From Phytoactinopolyspora alkaliphila (GTDB lineage: Bacteria > Actinomycetota > Actinomycetes > Jiangellales > Jiangellaceae): DNA of 64,000 bases. The notes beneath the pieces are model-generated. The model had not been told where the DNA came from. It worked only from the letters and a program-made list of their open reading frames with translations, and searched no databases. This document shows positions 31,438-44,454 of the stretch, in pieces. The translations under genes and the position numbers were made by a program. Positions within the stretch are counted from its first letter, which is position 1, and each line of letters opens with the position of its first letter. The stretch spans positions 186,001 to 250,000 of the forward strand of contig NZ_JAAGOB010000008.1 in NCBI RefSeq assembly GCF_010550695.1, read 5' to 3'.

Positions 31438-34400
31438 ATGAGCGTCGGAGCACCGCGAGGCCGATTGTGGATCGTCGACGCGCTACGTGCTCTTGTCGCC
31501 TTCGCTACCCTGACGCTACTCGTCGCAGGCGTCCCCTACGGCCTGTGGTGGGCAGGCGGATGGCCGTGGCCATTCCGCATCCCGAGCCTGGATGACATCA
31601 CGACCGCCTTGACTGCTCCGGATGACGGCTCGCTGTTCATCGGAGCCTTGCTCGTGGCTGGCTGGGTCGGCTGGGCGACCTTCGCCGTCGCCGTCCTCGT
31701 CGAGATCCCGGCCGCGCTGCGCGGGGTCCGGGCACCTCGGCTTCCCGCCCTGGGCACGCAACAGCGGCTCGCCGCCGTCCTCGTCTCCGCCGTCGCGGGC
31801 ATGCTGACCATCGGCCCGGTCGCCACCGCCGAACCAGCCCCATCTCATTCCTTCACTACCGCCGTTCCGCCGGACGACTGGCGACCTGTACCAACCGTCC
31901 CGCCCGAAATGCTCACCGGAGAGCAACCACAGAACCACCAAGAGGAACCCACGAAACCCGACCACGAAGCAGAACCCGACGAGGAAGAGACATCGGAGCA
32001 CGTCGTCCAGCGAGGCGACACTCTCTGGGACATCGCCGCTGCCCTGCTTGGTGATCCGTGGCGATGGGCCGAAATCTTCGAAGCCTCGAAGGACACCATC
32101 CAGCCCGACGGGCGACGCCTCACCCATCCAGATCTGATCTATCCCGGCTGGCACCTGACGATTCCAGCTGTCACGCCTGGACCCGACCAGGCCTCGACGG
32201 TGCCAGACACCGGCGACAACCTCGCCGCCGATCCAACTGCGTCCAGTTCCAATCACGACGGGCTGGTGTCCAACTCGAGCGGCGACGCTCGCGACGCCGA
32301 CACGGAGTCAGCTGCCGATACCAGCCCTGCGGCGGCGGACGAGCGGCAACCCATCCCCACAGGCCTGATCATCAGCGGCCACAACGTAGCGCCCGCGCCG
32401 ACGCCGTCCGGTGAGGACGCCGCGGAATGCGACGTACCTGGCTCCGACTCCTTCGCGGGTCCCGCAACCGATGAGCAGGATCCAGACGACGACTCAGATG
32501 TGGCCGAGCTTGTCCGCACGGCTACCGGTGTCGGTGCGTTGCTCGCGGCAGGAGTCATTGGCCTGCTCACCACACGCCGCGCACTTCAACAACGTCGACG
32601 ACGTGCAGGGCAACGACTCCCCCAGCCCACCGACCTCGCTGCCGCGACAGAGCTCGAACTGCGCGATGTCGCCGACGCTACGCAAGTCGATTTCGTCGAT
32701 CGTGCCCTGCGGACACTCGCCGTGCGGCTCAGCCAACGTGGCCAAGCACCTCCACCGCTACGCCTCGCACGTCTCATCGACGACCAGCTCGAGCTCTATT
32801 TCGAAGAACCGGCCGACCTTCCGCCACCGTTCATCGCCGACGACGAGCGCACGACGTGGATGACTACCGCCGACGCCGACGGCATGCTTGACATCGACGC
32901 CGACGACGTCCCGGCACCGTGGCCAAGCCTCGTCACCATCGGCCACGACACAGACAACGCCCACATCATGCTGGACCTGGAGCACGTCGGAACGCTGAAC
33001 GTCTTTGGTGACGTCGAGTCTTGCCACGCCTTCGTCTCCGCGCTCGCCACTGAGCTATGCACCAGTCGGTGGGCCGACGACATCCAGGTGACCTTCGTGG
33101 GCAGCCACGTCGACCTCGAAGCCCTGCAGACCGGGCGCGTTCGCCACACGACCGACGTCGACCGCCTCATGCGCGAACTCACAGCACGGGCTAATGCTGA
33201 TCGCGAACTACTCCGGCAGTGCCAAACCGACAGCGTCGCCGAAGCTCGCACGAAGCAGACCGCCGCCGGGGCATGGACTCCGGAGATCGTCGTCGTCACC
33301 GAACCATTGCCGCTCTCCCAGCAGCAACAACTCAGTGCCCTGATCAGTCAAGAGCTCCGGCTCGCGATCGCTGCGGTCGTCCTCGGCCCTGGTAGCGCAG
33401 GCGGGACGGCCATCCGAATCGCCAATCCGAGCACAGCGGTGCTTGAACCCCACGACTTGGTGCTGCGTCCGCAGCAAGTCAGGTCGCCCGTGCGGGATCG
33501 GATCATCGACCTGGTGACGACCGCCGACGGCGAACTTGTCGGCCAACCCCTCATGGAGATACCCCTGGACCAGATCCCGCAAAGCGCTGTCGCTGCAGCC
33601 TTGGAGAGCGTCTCCCCGACCGCTGCTGACGATCAAGACCTGAATCGCCCTCCCTCAGGCCCCAGTGAGGTACACGGTTCACGCCGCGCCAACGGCGAAA
33701 CGGCACCGGAAAGTACACCAACACGCCATCCGCGCGTCCTCCTCCTCGGAGAGCCCGACGTCGTCGGCGCCCAAGGGCCGCTGGAGAAGACCAAACGCAA
33801 CCAGGCCGTCCAGCTCGCCTGCTACCTATCGCTGCGGCCCGGCCGTCACGGATCGGCGATGGACGAAGCGATATGGCCCAACGGACGCCCAGGGACGAAT
33901 ACCCGCGGCACAGCAGTGTCAAGGCTGCGCCGATGGCTCGGCCCCCACCCGGACGACGACACGTACCTTCCGCACGCCACCGACGACATCTACCAGTTTC
34001 ACCGTGACGTGCAATCTGACTGGCAAGACTGGTGCGACATCCTCCCCGACGGACTCGTCCAGGCCAGTAGCGACGATCTGTGGCGAGCTCTCGACCTTGT
34101 TCGGGCACGACCGCTATCCGGGCGCGGTGCCTCATACACCTGGGCCGACATGCACGCCCACGAGATGACCTCCGCCATCATTGACGCCTGCCATGAACTC
34201 GCCGAACGAGCACTCAAGGCCGGTGATCTGCGCGCCACGCAGACCGCCGCGCTACGCGGCCTCGACATCGAACCGGCCTGCGAACTCCTCTGGAGAGACC
34301 GTCTCAAAGCCGAGGCCCGACTCGGCAACCGCACCCGTACGCTCGAACTCATCGGCCGACTCCGCGTTCTCGCGGACGAGCTCGGGAGCGACCTCGAAGA

Positions 34401-34452
34401 CGAAACCATCGCCCTCATCGACCAGATTGTGCAACGCAGCCGCTCGAGCTGA
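31438..34452 (+). CDS. LysM and BTAD-domain membrane protein
   Basis: The 1004-residue protein combines parts not usually joined outside actinobacterial Tad loci. Two N-terminal membrane helices (about 15-37 and 60-85) and a third near 120 precede an acidic linker and a LysM domain (HVVQRGDTLWDIAAALLGDPWRW, about 187-243). Another membrane helix lies at about 362-377. The middle part (about 400-740) is unassigned. The C-terminus has a winged-helix-like segment (VLLLGEPDVVGAQGPL at about 762) and a BTAD helical repeat ending near 1000 (RALDLVRARPLSG, AERALKAGDL). It may sense cell wall status outside and signal inside. It ends the operon. Confidence 0.8.
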   Translation: MSVGAPRGRLWIVDALRALVAFATLTLLVAGVPYGLWWAGGWPWPFRIPSLDDITTALTAPDDGSLFIGALLVAGWVGWATFAVAVLVEIPAALRGVRAPRLPALGTQQRLAAVLVSAVAGMLTIGPVATAEPAPSHSFTTAVPPDDWRPVPTVPPEMLTGEQPQNHQEEPTKPDHEAEPDEEETSEHVVQRGDTLWDIAAALLGDPWRWAEIFEASKDTIQPDGRRLTHPDLIYPGWHLTIPAVTPGPDQASTVPDTGDNLAADPTASSSNHDGLVSNSSGDARDADTESAADTSPAAADERQPIPTGLIISGHNVAPAPTPSGEDAAECDVPGSDSFAGPATDEQDPDDDSDVAELVRTATGVGALLAAGVIGLLTTRRALQQRRRRAGQRLPQPTDLAAATELELRDVADATQVDFVDRALRTLAVRLSQRGQAPPPLRLARLIDDQLELYFEEPADLPPPFIADDERTTWMTTADADGMLDIDADDVPAPWPSLVTIGHDTDNAHIMLDLEHVGTLNVFGDVESCHAFVSALATELCTSRWADDIQVTFVGSHVDLEALQTGRVRHTTDVDRLMRELTARANADRELLRQCQTDSVAEARTKQTAAGAWTPEIVVVTEPLPLSQQQQLSALISQELRLAIAAVVLGPGSAGGTAIRIANPSTAVLEPHDLVLRPQQVRSPVRDRIIDLVTTADGELVGQPLMEIPLDQIPQSAVAAALESVSPTAADDQDLNRPPSGPSEVHGSRRANGETAPESTPTRHPRVLLLGEPDVVGAQGPLEKTKRNQAVQLACYLSLRPGRHGSAMDEAIWPNGRPGTNTRGTAVSRLRRWLGPHPDDDTYLPHATDDIYQFHRDVQSDWQDWCDILPDGLVQASSDDLWRALDLVRARPLSGRGASYTWADMHAHEMTSAIIDACHELAERALKAGDLRATQTAALRGLDIEPACELLWRDRLKAEARLGNRTRTLELIGRLRVLADELGSDLEDETIALIDQIVQRSRSS

Positions 34453-34736
34453 CACGGAACCGCACCGAGCGACACGATCGGACGTTGGCTGGCCCGGCTA
34501 CTATCGCCCGGACCGCCGGCTGCCGGCGCGGGTCGCAGCGAAATCCAGGCCGACATCTCAGGTGGGTCGGGCAGCCTGGTCTCATTTCTCATGTGGGCCG
34601 GTCCACACCATGGCCCCACGTGCAAGGTGGTGTGCCGAGGAGTTCGTCTTCTGCTCTTGCCGGCAGCGCATCGGCGAGCATGACCACGACCGTCGAGACC
34701 GGCGCGGGCGCGGTCCGCTCGGAACCGCTCACTGGC

Positions 34737-34889
34737 TCAGGGATCAACAGGCGGGACGATCGCCCATGTGTACACGCCGCGGCGTGGGTCGTGACTGCAC
34801 TCGTACCAGATGTCGGCTTCCTCATCGTGCTCAAGACGGCCGAGATCGTCTGGTCCTTGGCAATCTCGGGGATCCGGAACGGGCGTCAT
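34737..34889 (-). CDS. 50-residue microprotein downstream of dCTP deaminase
   Basis: A short frame on the minus strand starts with ATG at 34889, 6 bp after the stop of the dCTP deaminase gene, and ends at TGA 34737-34739. GGGGTAGGGA overlaps the deaminase stop and makes a good ribosome site about 5 bases from the ATG. The protein is acidic and reads naturally: DLGRLEHDEEADIWYECSHDP in two parts around residues 15-35, then YTWAIVPPVDP at the end. It has no recognised family. Coupling to the deaminase suggests a regulator or partner; this is inference. Confidence 0.55.
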   Translation of the reverse strand: MTPVPDPRDCQGPDDLGRLEHDEEADIWYECSHDPRRGVYTWAIVPPVDP

Positions 34890-34895
34890 TTGTCC

Positions 34896-36110
34896 CTACC
34901 CCTCGCCACCGAGCTCCAATTGCTGCGGATCATAAGCCACCTCGGAAGGAGTGGGAGCCATCTCAGTCTCCCCGTCGATTTTGAAGTGCTTGCCCAAGGT
35001 TTCGGTTTGGCTCTGGTAGTTGGACCCGAAAGCGGTGTCACCATACAGCATGGTTGGCTGTTCTAGCATCCGTTCGAACGTCAGTTTGCAGACGTGCTGG
35101 CGGTGCTCGATCATGAACGCCACGTCGTGAGCGCGCACCTCCAGTGCAGCGGTCGAGCCAGATTGCCGCGAACTTGAAGAGTAGCCGAATCCGGGGTCAA
35201 AGAAGCCGGCATAGTGGGTGCGAAGCTCGCCGCTTGTCGGATCGTACGCGGCCATCTCTGCTGCCAGATGCGGCGGAATCGTCACGGCCTCGTAGGACAT
35301 CAGGAGGTAGAAGCTGTTGGGTTGTAACACGATGCGATCACCCGGCCCCCGCTGCACCTTGTCCCAGAACAGGGCAGGCTCGGATGAGCGAATTCCACGC
35401 ATGTCCAGCAGCGGTGCGCTGCCGCGCGCCCGCCAGCCAACACCCTTTGCTTTCGAGCCGCGCAGGTTCAGGCCGAGGAACAGTCCGGAGGAAAGCTGCA
35501 GGTCCTTCGGCTGGAGTGCCTTCCCGTTGGCGGACAGCAGGGGGCCGTTTGAATGCTCAGCGCGGATGTCCGCATCGGACAGTGCGGTGTCTCCAACTGA
35601 TAGGCGCAGTTGGTTGAGGGTCAGTCCCTGATACACCCGAATGGGAAAGGACAGTGGAACGACCTCGAGATAGAGCGGTCCAACATACCCAGGCTTGATG
35701 TCATCGAAGCGCGCGCCGAAATCCGTGATCACTCTAGTGAAGACATCCGCTCGACCCGTTGAGCTCTTCGGATTCGCTCGTGCGCGCATCTTTTGTGGCA
35801 GTCGGAGTCTCTCCATGAGGGGGATGACATACGGCAGGCCAACCTCAAGTACCGCCCCCCCGGCGCCTGTGAGGTCCACCTCGTACTCACTCAGCTCCCG
35901 CAGCCGATCGGCGACCCGGTTGGGCCCCGGGAGGAAACTGCACTGGATGCGATGGGCCACCTCCCCGAGCCGCAGGTCAAGACTCGCGGGCTGGATGTTG
36001 CCAACCGGGATGTCGGCACCGACGCCGCTGACGACATCAGACGCTATCGCCTTCTCGATGTAGTGGTTGGGGAGCACACCTTCAACGCCGTCGGGCAGAT
36101 CCAGCATCAA
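34896..36110 (-). CDS. dcd: dCTP deaminase, double-domain DCD type
   Basis: The 404-residue protein resembles the long 2'-deoxycytidine 5'-triphosphate deaminase family. The first half has IQPASLDLRLGEVAHRI and the catalytic-region segment NPKSSTGRADVFTRVITDF (about 112-131), then GYVGPLYLEV with the Glu at about 150. The second half repeats the dUTPase-like fold (RIVLQPNSFYLLMS, PPHLAAEMAAYDPTSGELRTHYAGFFDPGFG, about 258-310). Such enzymes convert dCTP to dUTP. The long form is familiar from proteobacteria and odd here on a mobile element. Nucleotide-depleting dCTP deaminases are known anti-phage genes, so it may be defence cargo. ATG 36110 follows GAAGGGAAGG; ATG 36107 is equally possible. 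Confidence 0.8.
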   Translation of the reverse strand: MMLDLPDGVEGVLPNHYIEKAIASDVVSGVGADIPVGNIQPASLDLRLGEVAHRIQCSFLPGPNRVADRLRELSEYEVDLTGAGGAVLEVGLPYVIPLMERLRLPQKMRARANPKSSTGRADVFTRVITDFGARFDDIKPGYVGPLYLEVVPLSFPIRVYQGLTLNQLRLSVGDTALSDADIRAEHSNGPLLSANGKALQPKDLQLSSGLFLGLNLRGSKAKGVGWRARGSAPLLDMRGIRSSEPALFWDKVQRGPGDRIVLQPNSFYLLMSYEAVTIPPHLAAEMAAYDPTSGELRTHYAGFFDPGFGYSSSSRQSGSTAALEVRAHDVAFMIEHRQHVCKLTFERMLEQPTMLYGDTAFGSNYQSQTETLGKHFKIDGETEMAPTPSEVAYDPQQLELGGEG

Positions 36111-36667
36111 CTTCGGCCTTCCCTTCGTAGCTTCGCAAGAGTCTACGACTCGCGCTCAGCAACGGCGCGCCGCCAAGCGCGTTTCCCGACCGAGCCTTCA
36201 CGGTCCGCTTTGAATCCGACAGGGAGCGCTGCCGAACTCGAACACGGGGTCTTCTAGGGGACCGCTAGGCCAAAGAGCCTTACGACTCCCTGAACTTGCC
36301 ACTTGCCGATCCCGTAGAAGACGCAGTCGACAACGTCAACCACTCTGCGGCTGCGATCGGGAGCGAACTCGCAGACGTCAATCCGGATGTGACGCTCGCT
36401 GGCGAGGTACTCTCCACGCACTCAGGTGCCGAGTCCAGGCAACGAAGAACAGGGCCACTCTCGCTGCCGCGTCGTTCCCTGCGAACACTTCGAAATTAGA
36501 CCAAAGGGTGGATCCCGTGGGGAGACTGAGATCCCCGTTCGGCGCTGACACAGTGGCTTCACGGCGGCCTCGCAGGGTCTACAAGCGAGATCGGAGGCCA
36601 TGGGAGCTGACTGTGATGGACTCGCCGGGGGTCGGATAGTGCGTGCGGTTGGGACGCCTGAACCGTT
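36111..36667. other. Gene-poor region
   Basis: About 560 bp between the dCTP deaminase start and a recombinase fragment. No frame on either strand has convincing start signals or recognisable protein. The left end must contain the promoter of the deaminase gene; I cannot place it. The stretch is probably decayed sequence left by earlier insertions. Confidence 0.4.
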
Positions 36668-36847
36668 CTGAGCCCGGCTCAGGTGGACGATCTGATAGCC
36701 CGGTATCGGGAGGGCGCCACCCCGCGGTGAGTTGGGCGAACGGTTCAATGTTCACCGCCGCACCGTAGCGGCACGGTCCGGCACGCCCTGGCGGCGAAGG
36801 GCGTGAAGATCCGCCAAGGAGGTCGCCGTGCTCGGGTCACGACGTGA
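36668..36847 (+). pseudogene. Recombinase C-terminal HTH fragment, frameshifted
   Basis: From CTG 36668 the plus strand reads LSPAQVDDLIARYREGATPR and then hits a stop. One base of shift restores ELGERFNVHRRTVAAHL, and a further shift gives LAAKGVKIRQ before a TGA near 36847. This is the helix-turn-helix tail typical of actinobacterial resolvase/recombinase-family proteins. The catalytic part is missing. It marks the left side of the CBASS-PIN cargo block as a former recombinase site. Confidence 0.6.
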
Positions 36848-37149
36848 GCAAGGTCCCGACGGCGCGTCTCCTCTAAGATTGAGGCCGCTCATGCTGCAAT
36901 GTAAGGTGCGGGCGCGACCGTGTCGCAGACCACTGGCGAACGTTCCCTACGCCAACTGGCCGTTGGGAGTCGGCTTGTGGACACGGTCGGAGACTTGTCT
37001 CCGGTGCGGTAGCCGCCACGCTAGAGGCGGTACGCGCCGGTGCTCGGTAGACACGCCGTGCTGCAAGAGTCCTACGCGGTCGATGCGCCGCACGGATTTC
37101 GTCGGTAGCGGTGGCTACCGTGAGCACGTCCCGACGGGAGGCGAAGCAC
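36848..37149. promoter_or_regulatory. Upstream region of the CBASS operon with inverted repeats
   Basis: No gene is seen in these 300 bp. Two perfect inverted repeats are present: CGGAGAC-tt-GTCTCCG at 36988-37003 and CGGTAGC-ggtg-GCTACCG at 37103-37120. The second ends 30 bp before the ATG of the patatin gene, where it could act as an operator or an mRNA hairpin. A GGGAGGCGAAG ribosome site lies just before the ATG. The promoter itself could not be fixed. Confidence 0.4.
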
Positions 37150-38172
37150 ATGACCGACCGGTACTCGTCCACGGGCCCGACGCCCGAGCCCTTCACCGGC
37201 GACCGGTTCCAGATCCTCTCGCTCGACGGCGGCGGCGCAAAAGCACTGTTCAGCGCGAGCGTCCTCGCCCGCTTCGAGGAAGACCACGGCGTCCGAGTTG
37301 TTGACCGCTTCGACCTCATCGCCGGTACTTCTGCCGGCGGCATCGTGGCACTGGGCCTGGGTGCGGGCCTGTCGCCAGCCGAGATTGCCGACCGTTACCT
37401 CGAACTGATCGCCAAGGTCTTTCCCCGCAGCAGGCAACGCAAATGGCGCCCCAGCCGCCTGGTGCGGCCCAGCTACTCGGGCGAGGCTCTCCGTGAAGTG
37501 CTTGTCGAGGTGTTCGGCGATCGACTGCTCGGCGAAAGCAGCAAGCGACTCCTTGTGCCTTCCTGGGATGTTCAGAGCGGCGAGGTCCACCTCTTCAAGA
37601 CACCTCACAGTGATCGGCTCGTCCGTGACTGGAACGTCAAGATGGTTGATGTCGCTCTCGCCACATCGGCCGCGCCCACGTACTTCCCGGCAGCGACGGT
37701 TGACTCGGCGCGGCTCATTGACGGTGGAGTTTTCGCCAATAATCCGTCGGTGTTCGCCATCGGCGAGGCCAAGAGCATGCTCGGGGTGCAGCTGGACTCG
37801 ATGCGGGTTCTCAGCATTGGGACGATGTCGCCCTTCACCGATCACTCCGACCGACTCGACAACGCGGGAATCGGCCGATGGGCCTCGGCCGCCGTAGACA
37901 CGATCCTTACTGCGAGCAGTGACAGCAGCACCGGACTCGCCCGACACCTAATTGGTTTCGGCAACTTCGTCCGCTTGAACGCCACCGTGCAACCAGGTCT
38001 GTTCGCCCTCGACCGCATCGACGCGGCCAAGGTAGCCGGCTACGCCGCCACTGTGAGTCGCAACCTCAGTCCGGAGTATGCCGCCAAGTTCATCGACCAC
38101 ACCGCAGCACCATACTCGCCCCCGCCGGGACGAGGCGGGGCGGTCACGCCACGTGCTGAGGAGCAGAGCTGA
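37150..38172 (+). CDS. capV: CBASS effector: patatin-like phospholipase
   Basis: I chose ATG 37150 with GGAGG upstream, giving 340 residues. The patatin hallmarks are in order: oxyanion loop DGGGAKALF at about 26-34, nucleophile elbow GTSAG with Ser61, and DGG with the catalytic Asp191. CapV-type phospholipases are switched on by a cyclic dinucleotide and degrade the cell membrane, killing the infected cell. The next gene is a CD-NTase whose ATG overlaps this stop codon, which places the protein as the effector of a CBASS operon. The C-terminus is a flexible Pro/Gly tail. Confidence 0.9.
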   Translation: MTDRYSSTGPTPEPFTGDRFQILSLDGGGAKALFSASVLARFEEDHGVRVVDRFDLIAGTSAGGIVALGLGAGLSPAEIADRYLELIAKVFPRSRQRKWRPSRLVRPSYSGEALREVLVEVFGDRLLGESSKRLLVPSWDVQSGEVHLFKTPHSDRLVRDWNVKMVDVALATSAAPTYFPAATVDSARLIDGGVFANNPSVFAIGEAKSMLGVQLDSMRVLSIGTMSPFTDHSDRLDNAGIGRWASAAVDTILTASSDSSTGLARHLIGFGNFVRLNATVQPGLFALDRIDAAKVAGYAATVSRNLSPEYAAKFIDHTAAPYSPPPGRGGAVTPRAEEQS

Positions 38173-39185
38173 TGGAACAGGTCACCTACTTCACCACCTT
38201 TCTCACGGACCATGTCAACCTGCCCGACTACAAACTGGCGTTTCTCGACGAGCGCGTCGAGAGAATTTTCAGTGCGCTCAAGAAGGCTGACCTCGGTACC
38301 CGCGTGCTGGGCATGAAGAAGCAGGGTTCGTGGGCGCAGCGCACGATCATCAACCCGAAGGAGGACGAGGAGTTCGACGCTGACTTCATGGTCGAACTTG
38401 AAGAACAGGAAGGCTGGAGCCCGTCGGACTACCAGGCCCCCGTCTTTGAAGCGCTCAGCGACTACTGCGAAGCGCAGCAGATGAGCACAGCGCCCGAAGC
38501 GAAGAACCGCTGCGTCCGCGTTGCCTACGCCAACTACATGCATGTCGATGTCGTCCCCTACGTCGACCGAGCCAACGGGGGCGAGTCCATCGTCAACACC
38601 GACACCAACGAGTGGGAAGATACCGATCCCAGCGGCTTAACACAGTGGATGCGTGGCAAGGACGAGATCACCAACGGAAACATGCGCCGGGTCCTACGTA
38701 TCCTCAAGTACCTGCGTGACCACCGGGACTACTACGACGATACCAGGTCCATTATCCTGACCACCATCGTTGGGGGCGTCATCAGCCTCGACAAGACACG
38801 GACCCACCCCGGCTGTTACGGCAATGTCCCGAAGACGCTTCACCGGATCACCACTGACCTGGCTGACTGGGTTCGCAACATGCCGGAGCGACCTGAAGTC
38901 GCGGACCCCTCTCGGGCGGACTCCACGTTCACACATCGCTGGCCGCAGTGGGAGTACGACGACTTCCGGCGAGACATTCAGACCGTTGCCAGCCTCATCG
39001 ATAACGCCATCAACTGCTCCACCTCCTGGTCTGACAGCGCCAACAAGTGGCGCGATCTCCTCGGCGACGACTTCGGACCTGCTGATGTCGGTAACGACAG
39101 CAAGTTCCCAGCCACAGGCGCAGGCACTGGCGCTGGAGCGGCAGGGGTGGAAACCACGACGGGACGCAGCGGCCGAGCCGGGTGA
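38172..39185 (+). CDS. CBASS cyclic-nucleotide synthase (CD-NTase)
   Basis: The 337-residue nucleotidyltransferase has the G-S pair in KKQGSWAQRT (Gly52-Ser53), the metal-binding FDADFMVEL (Asp69, Asp71) and the third Asp in HVDVVPYVD (Asp126). These are the hallmarks of the DncV/SMODS-type enzymes that make cyclic di- or trinucleotides on phage infection. The ligand cannot be told from the motifs; CapV partners often use cGAMP. The last 25 residues are Gly/Ala/Thr-rich and end in Arg-Ala-Gly, so a free C-terminal Gly is exposed, which is what the E1-E2 protein encoded next would need to conjugate it. It overlaps capV by one base. Confidence 0.9.
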   Translation: MEQVTYFTTFLTDHVNLPDYKLAFLDERVERIFSALKKADLGTRVLGMKKQGSWAQRTIINPKEDEEFDADFMVELEEQEGWSPSDYQAPVFEALSDYCEAQQMSTAPEAKNRCVRVAYANYMHVDVVPYVDRANGGESIVNTDTNEWEDTDPSGLTQWMRGKDEITNGNMRRVLRILKYLRDHRDYYDDTRSIILTTIVGGVISLDKTRTHPGCYGNVPKTLHRITTDLADWVRNMPERPEVADPSRADSTFTHRWPQWEYDDFRRDIQTVASLIDNAINCSTSWSDSANKWRDLLGDDFGPADVGNDSKFPATGAGTGAGAAGVETTTGRSGRAG

Positions 39186-39189
39186 CTAC

Positions 39190-41097
39190 ATGGGCAAGGT
39201 GAAGAGCAGACTCACCGACTGGCAGCAGCAGTGCCTGGCCCACCTCAGGGCATCGGCGAAACAACTACCTGACACGCTCACCGGGGTCGGTACAGGCGAG
39301 TTCGACACGGAAACTCGGACGCTCCACGTCCCCTTCTCCCTAAACACCAGCGAAATCGACTCGGTCCCGCACGGTCTACTCCTCGAGGACCAAGAGTCGT
39401 TCATCCTCGCCATCGGCCCAGACAACGAACACCCACCCGCCGTGTACGTCGACCACTTCCGGTTCCTGGGACACCCGCACGTGCTATCCGGATTCCAGTT
39501 CTGTCTCTACCTGGACGAAACCCGAGAATGGGACCCACACCACGGAATCAACGGCGTCCCCAACGGCGTCCTCAATCGGCTCTGGCGATGGCTCATCAAA
39601 GCAGCAAAGGCGGAGTTCAACGCAGACGAAGCTCTCTACCATGCGGTAGGCGGAATCCCACACCTCAGCCACACCGGTGTGCCTGTGCCTCCCATCGTTG
39701 TGAGCGAACTACCCCAACAACGCGGCCGGGCTGCCTCGGCCTGGCTCACCCGCCGTGCAGACTGGTGCCTGCAACTGCACGCCTCACGCCCATCTGGCGA
39801 GGAAGCAGAACACATGCCGGTGTTCTTCGCCGATCACGACCTTCCCTTCGGAGCAGGAAGCGACTACCTCTACCACCTCACCAGCCGCTTAGACCTCCAC
39901 CAGCAGCAAGAACTCCAGATCGCCGCCGCGCTCCAGAACTCGCCCTTCTACAGCGCGCAGCAGACACCCAATCCGGAGTGCGAGATCGGGAGAAGACCCT
40001 TCTGGGTACAGAATGGCGTGCGCGCAGTTGCGCAGGAGTTCGATCGCAGCCAATCGATCGCCATGCTTACGACGCTCGCCGCGAGTGCGGCACGCAAGCC
40101 CGAAGGAACTCCGCAGACCCTTCTGCTCGCCGTGCCTCACCCCCAAGGGGGGCCGCGACACCTCATCGCGGTCTACTTCGACGCTGAACTCGCGGACCAC
40201 CTCCGACGGCTCATGCGGGACAAGACAGGGCCACTACTGACGTTCGACAAGGCGCGACTCGACCGAAGCACTCCTCTGAAGTGGTGCTACGTCTCGGACG
40301 AAAGAGACGATGTGAACCACCGACGCGATATCGCCAGACCTGTTGCCACGTACCATGACACAGAAATCCTCGTCCTTGGTGTTGGCGGACTTGGCTCCTG
40401 GATCGCTGAGTTCATCACGCGCGCCGGAGCAGCCAAAATCACCGTTTGCGACACGGGGATCATCACCGGAGGACTTCTCGTCCGACAGAACTACACGGAC
40501 CACGACATCGGGGCAGCGAAGGCAGACCGACTTGCGGAACGGCTACGTGCCATCGCGCCTGGCATCGATATCCAAAGCCGCCACAGGATTGAAGATGATG
40601 AACTATGGACCATCGCGACCTCGGCGAACCTGATCGTGGACGCAACGATCAATCGCGCAGTTGCCCGACGCCTCGACATCATGGCGCTTGACCCGACTCG
40701 AACGGCCGTCATCGCCCAGGTCGCAACAGACGCGGGGACCGGGAGTCTTGGCCTCGCGATGGTGCATGGGACCAAACACAGCATCAGCGCGCTCAAAACA
40801 GACGTACAAACTGGTCACATTGTCAATCACGAACCAGATCTCGAACCCTATCGAGCCTTCTGGAAGGACCCCGAACCCGGAGATGAGTTCATTCCAACCC
40901 GCGGTTGCTCCCTGCCGACCTTCCACGGTTCGGCCGCCGACCTTGCCGGCGTCGCCGCCAGCCTGACGACGCTCATCGCGCCCCACCTGGCCGATGGCGA
41001 AAGCGGCGCCCACCTCATCGCCCTGCCACACTCGGGCATCACACCCGCGTATCGATACATCCCGACGAGTTCCTTAGCCCATGGCAGCGCTGCGTGA
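39190..41097 (+). CDS. cap2: CBASS E2-E1 fusion, Cap2-like
   Basis: The 635-residue protein has an N-terminal E2-like domain: HPHVLSGFQFCLYLDETREW with candidate catalytic Cys105, followed by LNRLWRWLIKAA and HAVGG. A linking region (about 170-380) is followed by a ThiF/E1 domain with the nucleotide motif LVLGVGGLGSW at about 394-404, Asp421 in the next strand, the RQNY and K444 positions, and the E1 Cys573 in TRGCSLPTFHGS. In type II CBASS, Cap2 attaches the CD-NTase C-terminus to target lysines and primes it. ATG 39190 lies 4 bp after the CD-NTase stop; the ribosome site is weak. No Cap3 (JAB protease) gene follows. Confidence 0.87.
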   Translation: MGKVKSRLTDWQQQCLAHLRASAKQLPDTLTGVGTGEFDTETRTLHVPFSLNTSEIDSVPHGLLLEDQESFILAIGPDNEHPPAVYVDHFRFLGHPHVLSGFQFCLYLDETREWDPHHGINGVPNGVLNRLWRWLIKAAKAEFNADEALYHAVGGIPHLSHTGVPVPPIVVSELPQQRGRAASAWLTRRADWCLQLHASRPSGEEAEHMPVFFADHDLPFGAGSDYLYHLTSRLDLHQQQELQIAAALQNSPFYSAQQTPNPECEIGRRPFWVQNGVRAVAQEFDRSQSIAMLTTLAASAARKPEGTPQTLLLAVPHPQGGPRHLIAVYFDAELADHLRRLMRDKTGPLLTFDKARLDRSTPLKWCYVSDERDDVNHRRDIARPVATYHDTEILVLGVGGLGSWIAEFITRAGAAKITVCDTGIITGGLLVRQNYTDHDIGAAKADRLAERLRAIAPGIDIQSRHRIEDDELWTIATSANLIVDATINRAVARRLDIMALDPTRTAVIAQVATDAGTGSLGLAMVHGTKHSISALKTDVQTGHIVNHEPDLEPYRAFWKDPEPGDEFIPTRGCSLPTFHGSAADLAGVAASLTTLIAPHLADGESGAHLIALPHSGITPAYRYIPTSSLAHGSAA

Positions 41098-41287: not shown

Positions 41288-42253
41288 TTAGGCAATGTCT
41301 TCGAGAAGCGAAAGTAAAAACGTAAGCGATTCCACGCCAGCCGGTGATCTACGCACCTCGGCAAGCGGCACAGGGCAGTGTGGCCGCATCGCATCGACAA
41401 GTTCGACGAACACCTTGTCCGTGCTAACGAACATGTCAACATCAATTAGATAGGTCGCCAGCTGATTATCTCCTGGTGTCCCGGGCGACGTGCTTCGTGT
41501 CGCCTGCGCCTCCGCCATCGCCCATCGGACCCATTCGCGTGGCAGCGCATGAGTCTCGACCTCGCGGGTCCAGAGCTGCGCCCAGGATGCTGGGTCGGCT
41601 CCAATCGCACGCAAGTCGAGCCATGGACCGAGCCAGTCAACGGCTGGCCCTGACCGACCATGCACAAGTTTGTCCCACCACCAGGCGACTGACGCTGCGC
41701 GCCACGCTTCAAACGCATTCCCGTCCCATCCCGGGGTTGGTTCCGCAAAGGTTGCCGTCGCGTTGTTCCACTTGAACTTATGGAGTGTGTGTCCCAGGGA
41801 CTCCGCCTCTTTGCGTGCGAACTTCGCCTCTACTCGGGCTTGTTGCAGATCAGAGTCCCCTAGGGATCCGATCACACGGGCCATTTCTCTAGAACTGTGC
41901 CGCACGCGCCACCAGAAGCCACTCTGCCAGTCTGCTCGATGACGGTACCATTGTCGTAAGTCCGGAGCTTCGAGAAACCATGCTTGTCGAAGGCGACCGA
42001 GTTCAAAGCGTAGGTCCTCTGCCCCGGAGAACGCCTCTGGCATCACGCGCAGCCAGTCCTCACGTGTGAGTGCCTTGGCCCGACGCCTGCGCTTGTCGGG
42101 ATCGGGGACGCGCAGGCACTCGAAGACCACGGCGGGGCAGGCGACGACTTGGATTCCACTCGCCTTGGCCATCTTGCGCAGTGGCTCAACACCATTCTCA
42201 TCGATGATGTAGTTCCATACGTTGGTATCGAGCAGGACTGTTGGTGCAGACAT
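41288..42253 (-). CDS. PIN-domain protein with large insertion
   Basis: The 321-residue protein begins VLLDTNVWNYII with the first PIN Asp at residue 9, has a Glu in VVFECLRV near 44, and closes with GDNQLATYLIDVDMFVSTDKVFVELV (in two parts, about 255-285), carrying the last acidic residues. A Trp- and Arg-rich insertion of about 200 residues separates the halves, far more than in VapC toxins (about 130 residues in all). No antitoxin gene lies beside it. It converges on the CBASS operon with 190 bp between them that show no gene. A standalone RNase role in defence is possible; that is inference. Confidence 0.7.
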   Translation of the reverse strand: MSAPTVLLDTNVWNYIIDENGVEPLRKMAKASGIQVVACPAVVFECLRVPDPDKRRRRAKALTREDWLRVMPEAFSGAEDLRFELGRLRQAWFLEAPDLRQWYRHRADWQSGFWWRVRHSSREMARVIGSLGDSDLQQARVEAKFARKEAESLGHTLHKFKWNNATATFAEPTPGWDGNAFEAWRAASVAWWWDKLVHGRSGPAVDWLGPWLDLRAIGADPASWAQLWTREVETHALPREWVRWAMAEAQATRSTSPGTPGDNQLATYLIDVDMFVSTDKVFVELVDAMRPHCPVPLAEVRRSPAGVESLTFLLSLLEDIA

Positions 42254-42287
42254 ACGTCAGAGTCTGGCGGACCGGACGGCCGGAAGG

Positions 42288-42935
42288 AAGGTTGGATCCA
42301 TCAAAGGCAACGTCCACTGCCGCCTGTGCAGCCCGCGCCTGATCATGTCGAACGCGAAGCACCAGCACGGCAGCGTCTACTGCCGATTCATCTGCACCGG
42401 CTGATACGCCCGGCGCACCAACTGCGACCGCAGCGCGATCCCCATCGCGGATGCCGAGAGGCTGATCGCGGACTACTACCAGCGCATCTAGATCATCCCG
42501 CCCGCCGTGAATCACCCCCTGGGGTGCTACGAGTTCGACCAACTGCTCTCCGCCGAAGTCGAGGAACTGGCCCAGCTCACCGCGCACCGCCGCGACAGTC
42601 TCCGCCACAGCAGGAATGGCTCTTGCAAGCCCACTACGCCATCACGATCCCACTCACCCTCCTCAAGAGAGAGCAAGAACCGCATCCTCGCCGAGCGGGA
42701 CAGCGTGAAACGGCGCATCGATGGCCACCACGGCGAGTACGCCGAGGCCCGCGCCCACGTCAACGACGCGCTGAACCTGCCGACCAACTGCGCCGAAATC
42801 TACAACCTGTGGGTACACCAACCGGCGCCTTGCAACTAAGCATTCCTCACCAAGGTCTACATCGACAAAACGACGGACTCCGCGTCGAGAACAACCGTCC
42901 CTCCAGATTGCTGCTGCACCGAGATCAACGCCAAT
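42288..42935 (+). pseudogene. Large serine recombinase, C-terminal remnant
   Basis: Starting near 42288 the plus strand encodes the zinc-ribbon of a large serine recombinase: KGNVHCRLCSPRLIMSNAK, then after an in-frame TGA TNCDRSAIPIADAERLIADYY, another stop, then EVEELAQLTAHRRDSL. After a frameshift the coiled-coil part follows (RILAERDSVKRRIDGHHGEY, RAHVNDALNLPTNCAEIY) and FLTKVYIDK near 42850. The catalytic domain is absent. This is the right-hand counterpart of the HTH fragment at 36.7 kb, so the CBASS-PIN block sits between recombinase debris. The frame carries no expressed product. Confidence 0.72.
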
Positions 42936-43158
42936 GCCCTCAACTGGCTCAAGACAGCCAAAGCCCAGTCTCAGCCAACAATCCGTTCGGTCGCCGCGGG
43001 GAGGCATTTAACCACTCGTTGACAACTTTCGAAGCGTCCGCCGGTCGGAGGGAGCGTCCGAGAGATTCGCCCGAGCGGCTTTGGCGTATGACTGCATTGG
43101 AAGTATCCACCCTCTGCTCGGCAGTGTCCGGCAGTTTGTCGGTATCGTTCACCACGTG

Positions 43159-44454
43159 ATGATCACCTGGTCTAGCCTGCACCGGCTGCTTGGGCTCACT
43201 CCGCAGCCACTCACCCGCGCACATATCGATCAGGCTGTCCACGAGTCAGTCGCTGAAACCAGCGACCTTGATTGGAAGCCACTCCCCGGACGGACCGACC
43301 AGGAGCGACACGAGTTCGCCAAGGATGTCGCTGCCATGGCGAACAGCGGTGGTGGCCTGCTCGTGTTTGGGGTCGGCGAAGACGGTGGTGGCCGAGCCAG
43401 TTCCGTCCCCGGTGTGGAGATCGGAGAGGACGTGGAGAGGCGACTACGCGCACTCGCCGCCGGACGCATCCAACCGCCAGTCGCTGGGCTACAGTTCGCC
43501 AGCCTGTCTAATGACGGCGACCAAGCGCGAGGAGTGCTCGTGCTCGCTGTCCCCGCCAGCGCCGACGCCCCTCACATGCTGGAACGTGACGGTGGCATCC
43601 TTCTGGCCCCGTACCGAGACGGACCCGAGACGCCGTGGATGCGTGAGCGGCAGTTGGAACGGGCATACCGCGACCGGTTCGCTCAACGCGCAAATGAGCT
43701 TGGCGAGCTCGGACGGCTTGCCGCAGAGGTGAGCGACCAGCTTGAACTTGACGTTGGCGCGTGGCTCGTTGGCGTAGCACGGCCACGGATACCACGAGCT
43801 GGGATCCTGCCGGACATTGTGCAGACCGAAGTGCGCGAGATCGTCATCGAGGGCAAGAGCAGAAGCGTTGACATCGCACCAGCAAGGCCGGGGACCGGCC
43901 GGTTTCTCATACTCGACGAGCTCTACGACGAGGCACTGAACCCCCGTCGTGGTCTCCGTCGGTGGGTCGTTCGAAGCGCCTCGGATACAAGCCCTAGGGG
44001 TCAGAGTGACGGTTCCTACCTCGAAATTCACCACGACGGCACCATCGCATTCGCCACACGGCTCGATTGGGGAACTGCAGCCGTAGAAGGTCACTATGTC
44101 GTCCCTGCCGAACTGGCAGAGAGCTATGTCTCCGATCTGATCGGCCTGGCCCATGTCTCAGCCCAGCGCCGTTCGGTGGACGGGCCGATGGCCGTCCACC
44201 TGGACATCGTTAAGCCAGATCCTGCGACTCCGCTTGCGATCGTGACCCGCTACAGCACGGGCAGTCGTCCAGGCCAAGTCGAGCAGGAAGCACCATGGGC
44301 ACGCCCAGTGCGCAAATTTACGCCGCTCACTTCAGAGATCTCGCCAGGCGTCGACACCGAAGCACTTCGTGACACAGCCCGCAACCTCGCGCAGGACGTC
44401 GTCCACCAGTTCGGACATGACCCCTTGCGGATCATCCCTCCAGCGTCGTCCTAA
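43159..44454 (+). CDS. AlbA_2/Schlafen-type putative nucleic-acid protein
   Basis: I chose ATG 43159 (GTG 43156 is adjacent), giving 431 residues. The AlbA_2 domain occupies about 30-145: SDLDWKPLP, then EFAKDVAAMANSGGGLLVFGVGED, the characteristic Asn-Ser-Gly-Gly loop, and later ARGVLVLAVPAS. The rest of the protein is unassigned, with no ATPase motif. Schlafen/AlbA_2 proteins act on RNA or as regulators and are frequent in defence islands. There is no clear ribosome site, so the mRNA may be leaderless. It is the last large gene before the tRNA-Met repeat that ends the element. Confidence 0.7.
   Translation: MITWSSLHRLLGLTPQPLTRAHIDQAVHESVAETSDLDWKPLPGRTDQERHEFAKDVAAMANSGGGLLVFGVGEDGGGRASSVPGVEIGEDVERRLRALAAGRIQPPVAGLQFASLSNDGDQARGVLVLAVPASADAPHMLERDGGILLAPYRDGPETPWMRERQLERAYRDRFAQRANELGELGRLAAEVSDQLELDVGAWLVGVARPRIPRAGILPDIVQTEVREIVIEGKSRSVDIAPARPGTGRFLILDELYDEALNPRRGLRRWVVRSASDTSPRGQSDGSYLEIHHDGTIAFATRLDWGTAAVEGHYVVPAELAESYVSDLIGLAHVSAQRRSVDGPMAVHLDIVKPDPATPLAIVTRYSTGSRPGQVEQEAPWARPVRKFTPLTSEISPGVDTEALRDTARNLAQDVVHQFGHDPLRIIPPASS

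Follow-up and report, generated by a model that had tools for sequence, protein, structure and literature searches.

Evidence for a small gene under purifying selection directly behind a two-domain dCTP deaminase gene in an actinomycete

Does the short open frame behind a dCTP deaminase gene encode a protein and, if so, does that protein work with the enzyme? The locus lies in the window, by which we mean the whole 64,000-nt stretch analyzed here, part of contig C32 of a 5.5-Mb actinomycete genome. A sequence-only reading of the window had placed the frame 6 bp past the deaminase stop, with a ribosome site of its own, and had proposed an overlooked short gene coupled to an anti-phage enzyme. 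The position is confirmed: on the minus strand, the gene for the 404-residue deaminase (34896 to 36110) is followed, after a gap of 6 nt (34890 to 34895), by a frame for 50 residues with an ATG start and a TGA stop (34737 to 34889).

The deaminase reads from a TTG start, and its next codon is ATG. It scores 412 bits against NCBIfam NF005734 (cut-off, 283), carries the Pfam domains DCD_N (PF06559) and DCD_C (PF22569) above their curated cut-offs, and in a family profile search matches PDB entry 2R9Q over nearly its full length (4e-122). Residues K115, S116, G119, R120, and E149 are invariant in deaminase alignments of 10 and of 25 rows. The KSSTGR motif and the glutamate of LYLEVV, which we take to map to the active site of Escherichia coli Dcd, are both present. 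By these features, the enzyme is a two-domain dCTP deaminase of the DCD family, with dCTP deamination as its predicted activity. Two-domain DCD deaminases have the dUTPase fold and do not need zinc. A zinc-dependent deaminase domain of the cytidine or dCMP type is absent, a Pfam search up to an E value of 10 listing three DCD-type families only. As the same genome has another Dcd domain on contig C28, matched nearly end to end (and a partial Dcd match on contig C1), the window deaminase is an extra, accessory copy. Elsewhere, two two-domain deaminases were seen on separate contigs of one genome (G477; loci L130 and L132).

Evidence from the window itself leaves the small frame ambiguous. The sequence preceding its ATG (GAGGGGTAGGGACAA) contains a possible ribosome site (GAGGGG plus AGGGA, by sequence reading; 34893 to 34904, minus strand) that partly overlaps the last codons of the deaminase. 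GAGG ends 11 nt and AGGGA 3 nt upstream of the ATG, so that the claimed ribosome site is there in outline but looks modest, not strong. Of the stop triplets on the two strands of the window (n = 2,546), 5.1% have, no more than 10 nt away, an ATG that opens at least 50 codons, and 28.7% have a start of any kind within 20 nt that does so; in 4,000 simulations with a second-order Markov model of the local intergenic DNA, the ATG figure was 2.9%. By position and length alone, the small frame is no better than chance. A codon score trained on about 30 hand-listed window genes is ambiguous, lying between the distribution of spurious frames and that of real genes: 13% of the 122 spurious frames reach the score of the small frame, and 11% of 223 real 50-codon pieces score equally low. 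The ribosome-site and codon arguments are too weak to decide the matter. Comparable frames are common in the window, and among 102 deaminase rows, 5 of them duplicates, there are 39 with at least 52 open in-frame codons after the stop, which favors a chance open frame without function. Moreover, the TAG stop of the deaminase separates two frames that are in phase, a point absent from the sequence-only reading; this is what would be seen if readthrough gave the enzyme a C-terminal extension and there were no separate gene.

Both of these explanations are contradicted by a homologue in genome G888, which belongs to the same phylum as the window but to another class. There, directly after a deaminase gene (locus L139), a gene of 66 codons starts at an ATG that overlaps the deaminase TGA as ATGA, in a frame different from that of the deaminase. 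The two peptides are 62% identical over 45 codons, with 31 identical columns and the core WYE.S.DPRR.VYTWAI.PP, and their alignment scores 172, compared with at most 52 in 5,000 shuffles. Nei-Gojobori counts between the two genomes gave a pS of 0.74 and a pN of 0.26 for the small frame (45 codons), close to the pS of 0.69 and pN of 0.29 for the deaminases (399 codons); as synonymous sites are near saturation, the ratios are rough, but their direction is clear. After exclusion of stops, the three comparison frames (two forward, one antisense) had a pS of 0.28 to 0.36 and a pN of 0.36 to 0.38. None of the three shows an excess of pS over pN, so the constraint is specific to the coding frame. Over the 237 nt downstream of the small gene, the two genomes are 62% identical, the mean of 30 shuffles being 61%.

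Because the G888 homologue carries this frame-specific constraint, the small frame is almost certainly a real gene, one that has evolved under purifying selection right behind the deaminase gene in two genomes. The earlier proposal of an overlooked gene is borne out by this conservation (E = 5e-17 for the G888 copy), and the substitution ratio is not that of noncoding DNA. A frame open by chance is now very improbable. Readthrough is less probable still, given the different frame and the ATGA start in G888, and a profile search of all collected loci found none in which deaminase and peptide are fused.

To place the pair more widely, we collected 112 deaminase loci besides the window, after five repeats (L039 and L133 to L136) had been dropped. 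The sources were 9 of 392 other genomes of the class, 0 of 21 other genomes of the family, 7 of 395 other genomes sampled from the phylum (which gave 8 loci), 15 of 246 further genomes in the class to which G594 belongs, the best 80 of 585 stretches found in a contig collection with an alignment as the query, and one viral contig. A single-sequence deaminase search of the genome contig collection and of the viral contigs gave no match, and phage records yielded no deaminase relative; 16 plasmid records have one, all Alphaproteobacteria by name and 44 to 47% identical. A downstream homologue of the small gene was found in 1 of the 112 other loci, a set that includes the best 80 of the 585 stretches. 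Nothing in the first 97 loci resembled the peptide up to 700 nt past the deaminase, the best local score being 41; among 15 later ones, L139 scored 172 and the next best 38. Among the loci examined, including those best 80 of 585, the nearest relatives of the window deaminase are without the peptide. As 111 loci lack a homologue (4 of the 112 have less than 200 nt downstream, too short to tell), the deaminase family can do without the peptide. The constant position after deaminase genes, suggested earlier as a test, holds in two genomes and does not extend across the collected loci.

Searches with the peptide itself led to the same two copies. Across the whole genomes of 31 deaminase bearers, G888 stood out, and the best match elsewhere (E = 0.0037, contig C70 of genome G826) was rejected: it falls within an open reading frame for 428 residues, read as a transaldolase, that runs on the same strand in a different frame. 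Among 393 genomes of the class, the window's own gave the only credible match; best E values of 0.012 to 0.09 in 25 others were judged not credible (four full alignments were inspected). The window peptide had no credible match in plasmids, phages, or viral contigs, and a Streptomyces plasmid matched over 38 nt (E = 0.009), which was taken as chance. For the G888 peptide, the best E value against plasmids and phages was 1, and the viral contigs gave no credible match. PDB sequences gave the window peptide a best E value of 0.19, also not credible. A two-sequence profile run over all collected loci found no member beyond the window and G888 copies; L154 and L158 (E = 0.0017) were rejected, and L014 (E = 0.002) had also appeared in the peptide search of the class genomes. 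Neither peptide matches a family in Pfam, NCBIfam, or PHROGs, and the two would form a small-protein family new to these libraries.

The histories of the two deaminases differ. A tree of 50 rows places the window deaminase, on a long branch (1.12), in a group of 10 rows from its own class (support, 95/83), and L139 outside that group. An AU test rejected a single clade of the two enzymes (P = 2.7e-5), a result to be read with caution given the long branch of the window deaminase; by this rejection, the two copies do not simply reflect one recent transfer of the pair. As the deaminases are not sisters, there are two possibilities: an ancient pair with repeated loss of the peptide, or a small gene that became associated with two deaminases.

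The small protein is predicted to fold. AlphaFold2, run on the peptide alone and with no alignment, gave a three-stranded sheet (residues 19 to 22, 27 to 34, and 39 to 45) with a pLDDT of 86 and a pTM of 0.64 in the best of five models (range of pLDDT over the five, 73 to 86, with no control fold for comparison). When it was modeled as the continuation of the deaminase chain, the peptide kept the same three strands at lower confidence, and residues 380 to 412 had a pLDDT below 50; contacts in this fused model say nothing because it was given without pAE. Foldseek found no match to the peptide model at an E value of 0.001 or less in the PDB and a viral library, the best viral match being a 57-residue Microbacterium phage protein (E = 0.23), and a VIA fold comparison gave a best Z of 3.4.

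What such a protein does beside a deaminase is a question of weighing. That it is a partner of the enzyme we hold to have slightly better than even chances. The best reading, to which we lean with similar reserve, is a small folded protein that is probably translated in coupling with the deaminase and most likely binds it as an accessory or regulatory subunit. Since the small gene is placed directly after the deaminase gene, coupled translation is likely; a 6-nt gap and an ATGA overlap in another frame are both common in coupled genes. The protein would then bind the enzyme and, once bound, may adjust its activity or stability. The single homologue among the 112 other loci counts against a subunit. 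It would sit more easily with a small conserved protein that has its own function, for example, binding a nucleotide, a nucleic acid, or a thymidylate-supply enzyme, and is merely co-transcribed. Neither conservation nor fold demands that the peptide bind the deaminase, and almost every deaminase examined lacks it. This alternative is possible but doubtful, as the gene lies directly behind the deaminase gene in two otherwise different neighborhoods and two non-sister deaminase lineages. The dCTP/dTTP balance is set partly by dCTP deaminase, for which feedback by dTTP is known. If the subunit reading holds, a conserved partner of 50 to 66 residues would give a testable handle on deoxynucleotide control; the portion of the literature available to our search named no protein partner of dCTP deaminase.

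The C terminus of the enzyme has features of its own. The window deaminase has a long tail of low model confidence that ends in QQLELGGEG, and its coding stretch (34899 to 34982) includes QLELG, which resembles a putative sliding-clamp motif. Motifs of this kind bind the sliding clamp. Other long-tailed two-domain deaminases often have clamp-like motifs (QLSLW, QLSLP, QLELL, QLRML, QSSLF, and QPSLF; loci L035, L040, L044, L046, L054, L132, L148, and L151). The pattern Q[LM].[LMF], which was chosen after the tails had been seen, is present in 6 of the 17 tails that have at least 10 residues (shuffle mean, 0.2; none of 5,000 shuffles as high). In nine later tails (one of them, L141, misparsed), it occurs once (P = 0.07), and the wider Q..[LM][FLPW] occurs twice (P = 0.008). 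As far as the sources available to it went, a literature search on deaminases and the sliding clamp returned nothing plainly on clamp motifs in deaminase tails.

The surroundings of the window pair bear on a role in defense. A conjugative element lies in the left half of the window, with a matched TrwC relaxase and, by reading of the open reading frames, further transfer genes. The deaminase gene is flanked by a long BTAD/LysM gene (31438 to 34452) and by a divergent CBASS operon on the plus strand (37111 to 41097), which comprises a patatin-type phospholipase effector (37111 to 38172) and a SMODS CD-NTase (38172 to 39185), both from domain and PADLOC matches, and a fused E1-E2 protein from a PADLOC match (39190 to 41097). 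Adjoining it are a PIN-like gene, whose PIN-domain match is under the family's cut-off, and a Schlafen AlbA_2 gene (41288 to 44454), perhaps additional defense cargo. In the interval between the deaminase and CBASS genes (36640 to 36850), we noted by eye a putative frameshifted remnant that resembles the end of a resolvase-type helix-turn-helix protein.

With such neighbors on a conjugative element, an accessory deaminase could be an anti-phage enzyme that depletes nucleotides, and the peptide its inhibitor or a phage sensor. We regard this as improbable. PADLOC matched neither the window deaminase nor the window peptide, and the enzyme family differs from that of the known defensive deaminases in the available part of PMC12184417. 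Around the G888 copy lie genes for an L,D-transpeptidase, a subtilase, an Na+/H+ antiporter, and a GNAT enzyme. Of nine proteins there, the deaminase included, PADLOC matched only the subtilase, with E = 9e-39 to its subtilase model and E = 2e-13 or weaker to its IetS models; by our reading, this is a generic secreted protease in an ordinary chromosomal stretch with no clear defense context. It is also conceivable, though we think it unlikely, that the peptide is a dedicated protein inhibitor, the first for a DCD-type dCTP deaminase; the pair would then be an effector and its restraint on a mobile element, and dCTP depletion and dUTP build-up would be unleashed when the peptide was lost in infection or transfer.

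Compared with known systems, the window enzyme shares the family profile of the two-domain dCTP deaminases (NF005734) and a near full-length match with 2R9Q; it differs from them as an extra copy on a mobile element, with a long, low-confidence tail and a small candidate partner encoded downstream. Defensive dCTP deaminases were reportedly described in 2022 by Tal and by Hsueh, and dCTP deamination is common to them and the window enzyme by name. The phage-hindering enzymes covered in the available part of PMC12184417 depend on zinc and are fusions with other activities, whereas the window enzyme, which passes NF005734, shows DCD-type domains only. The link to nucleotide-depleting deaminases drawn by the sequence-only reading is not supported because the name is common to two different enzyme families, and we see little likelihood of a defense role for the pair. 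There was no Rfam match in positions 34300 to 37200, which bears on an AvcI-like RNA only if Rfam covers AvcI. In AvcI-AvcD, as the part available of PMC9455884 describes it, the deaminase works with AvcI, an RNA regulator or inhibitor, and a small neighboring element thus accompanies the enzyme, as in the window pair. AvcI, however, is an RNA encoded upstream of AvcD; the window enzyme is of the DCD type, and its predicted neighbor is a protein whose gene lies downstream.
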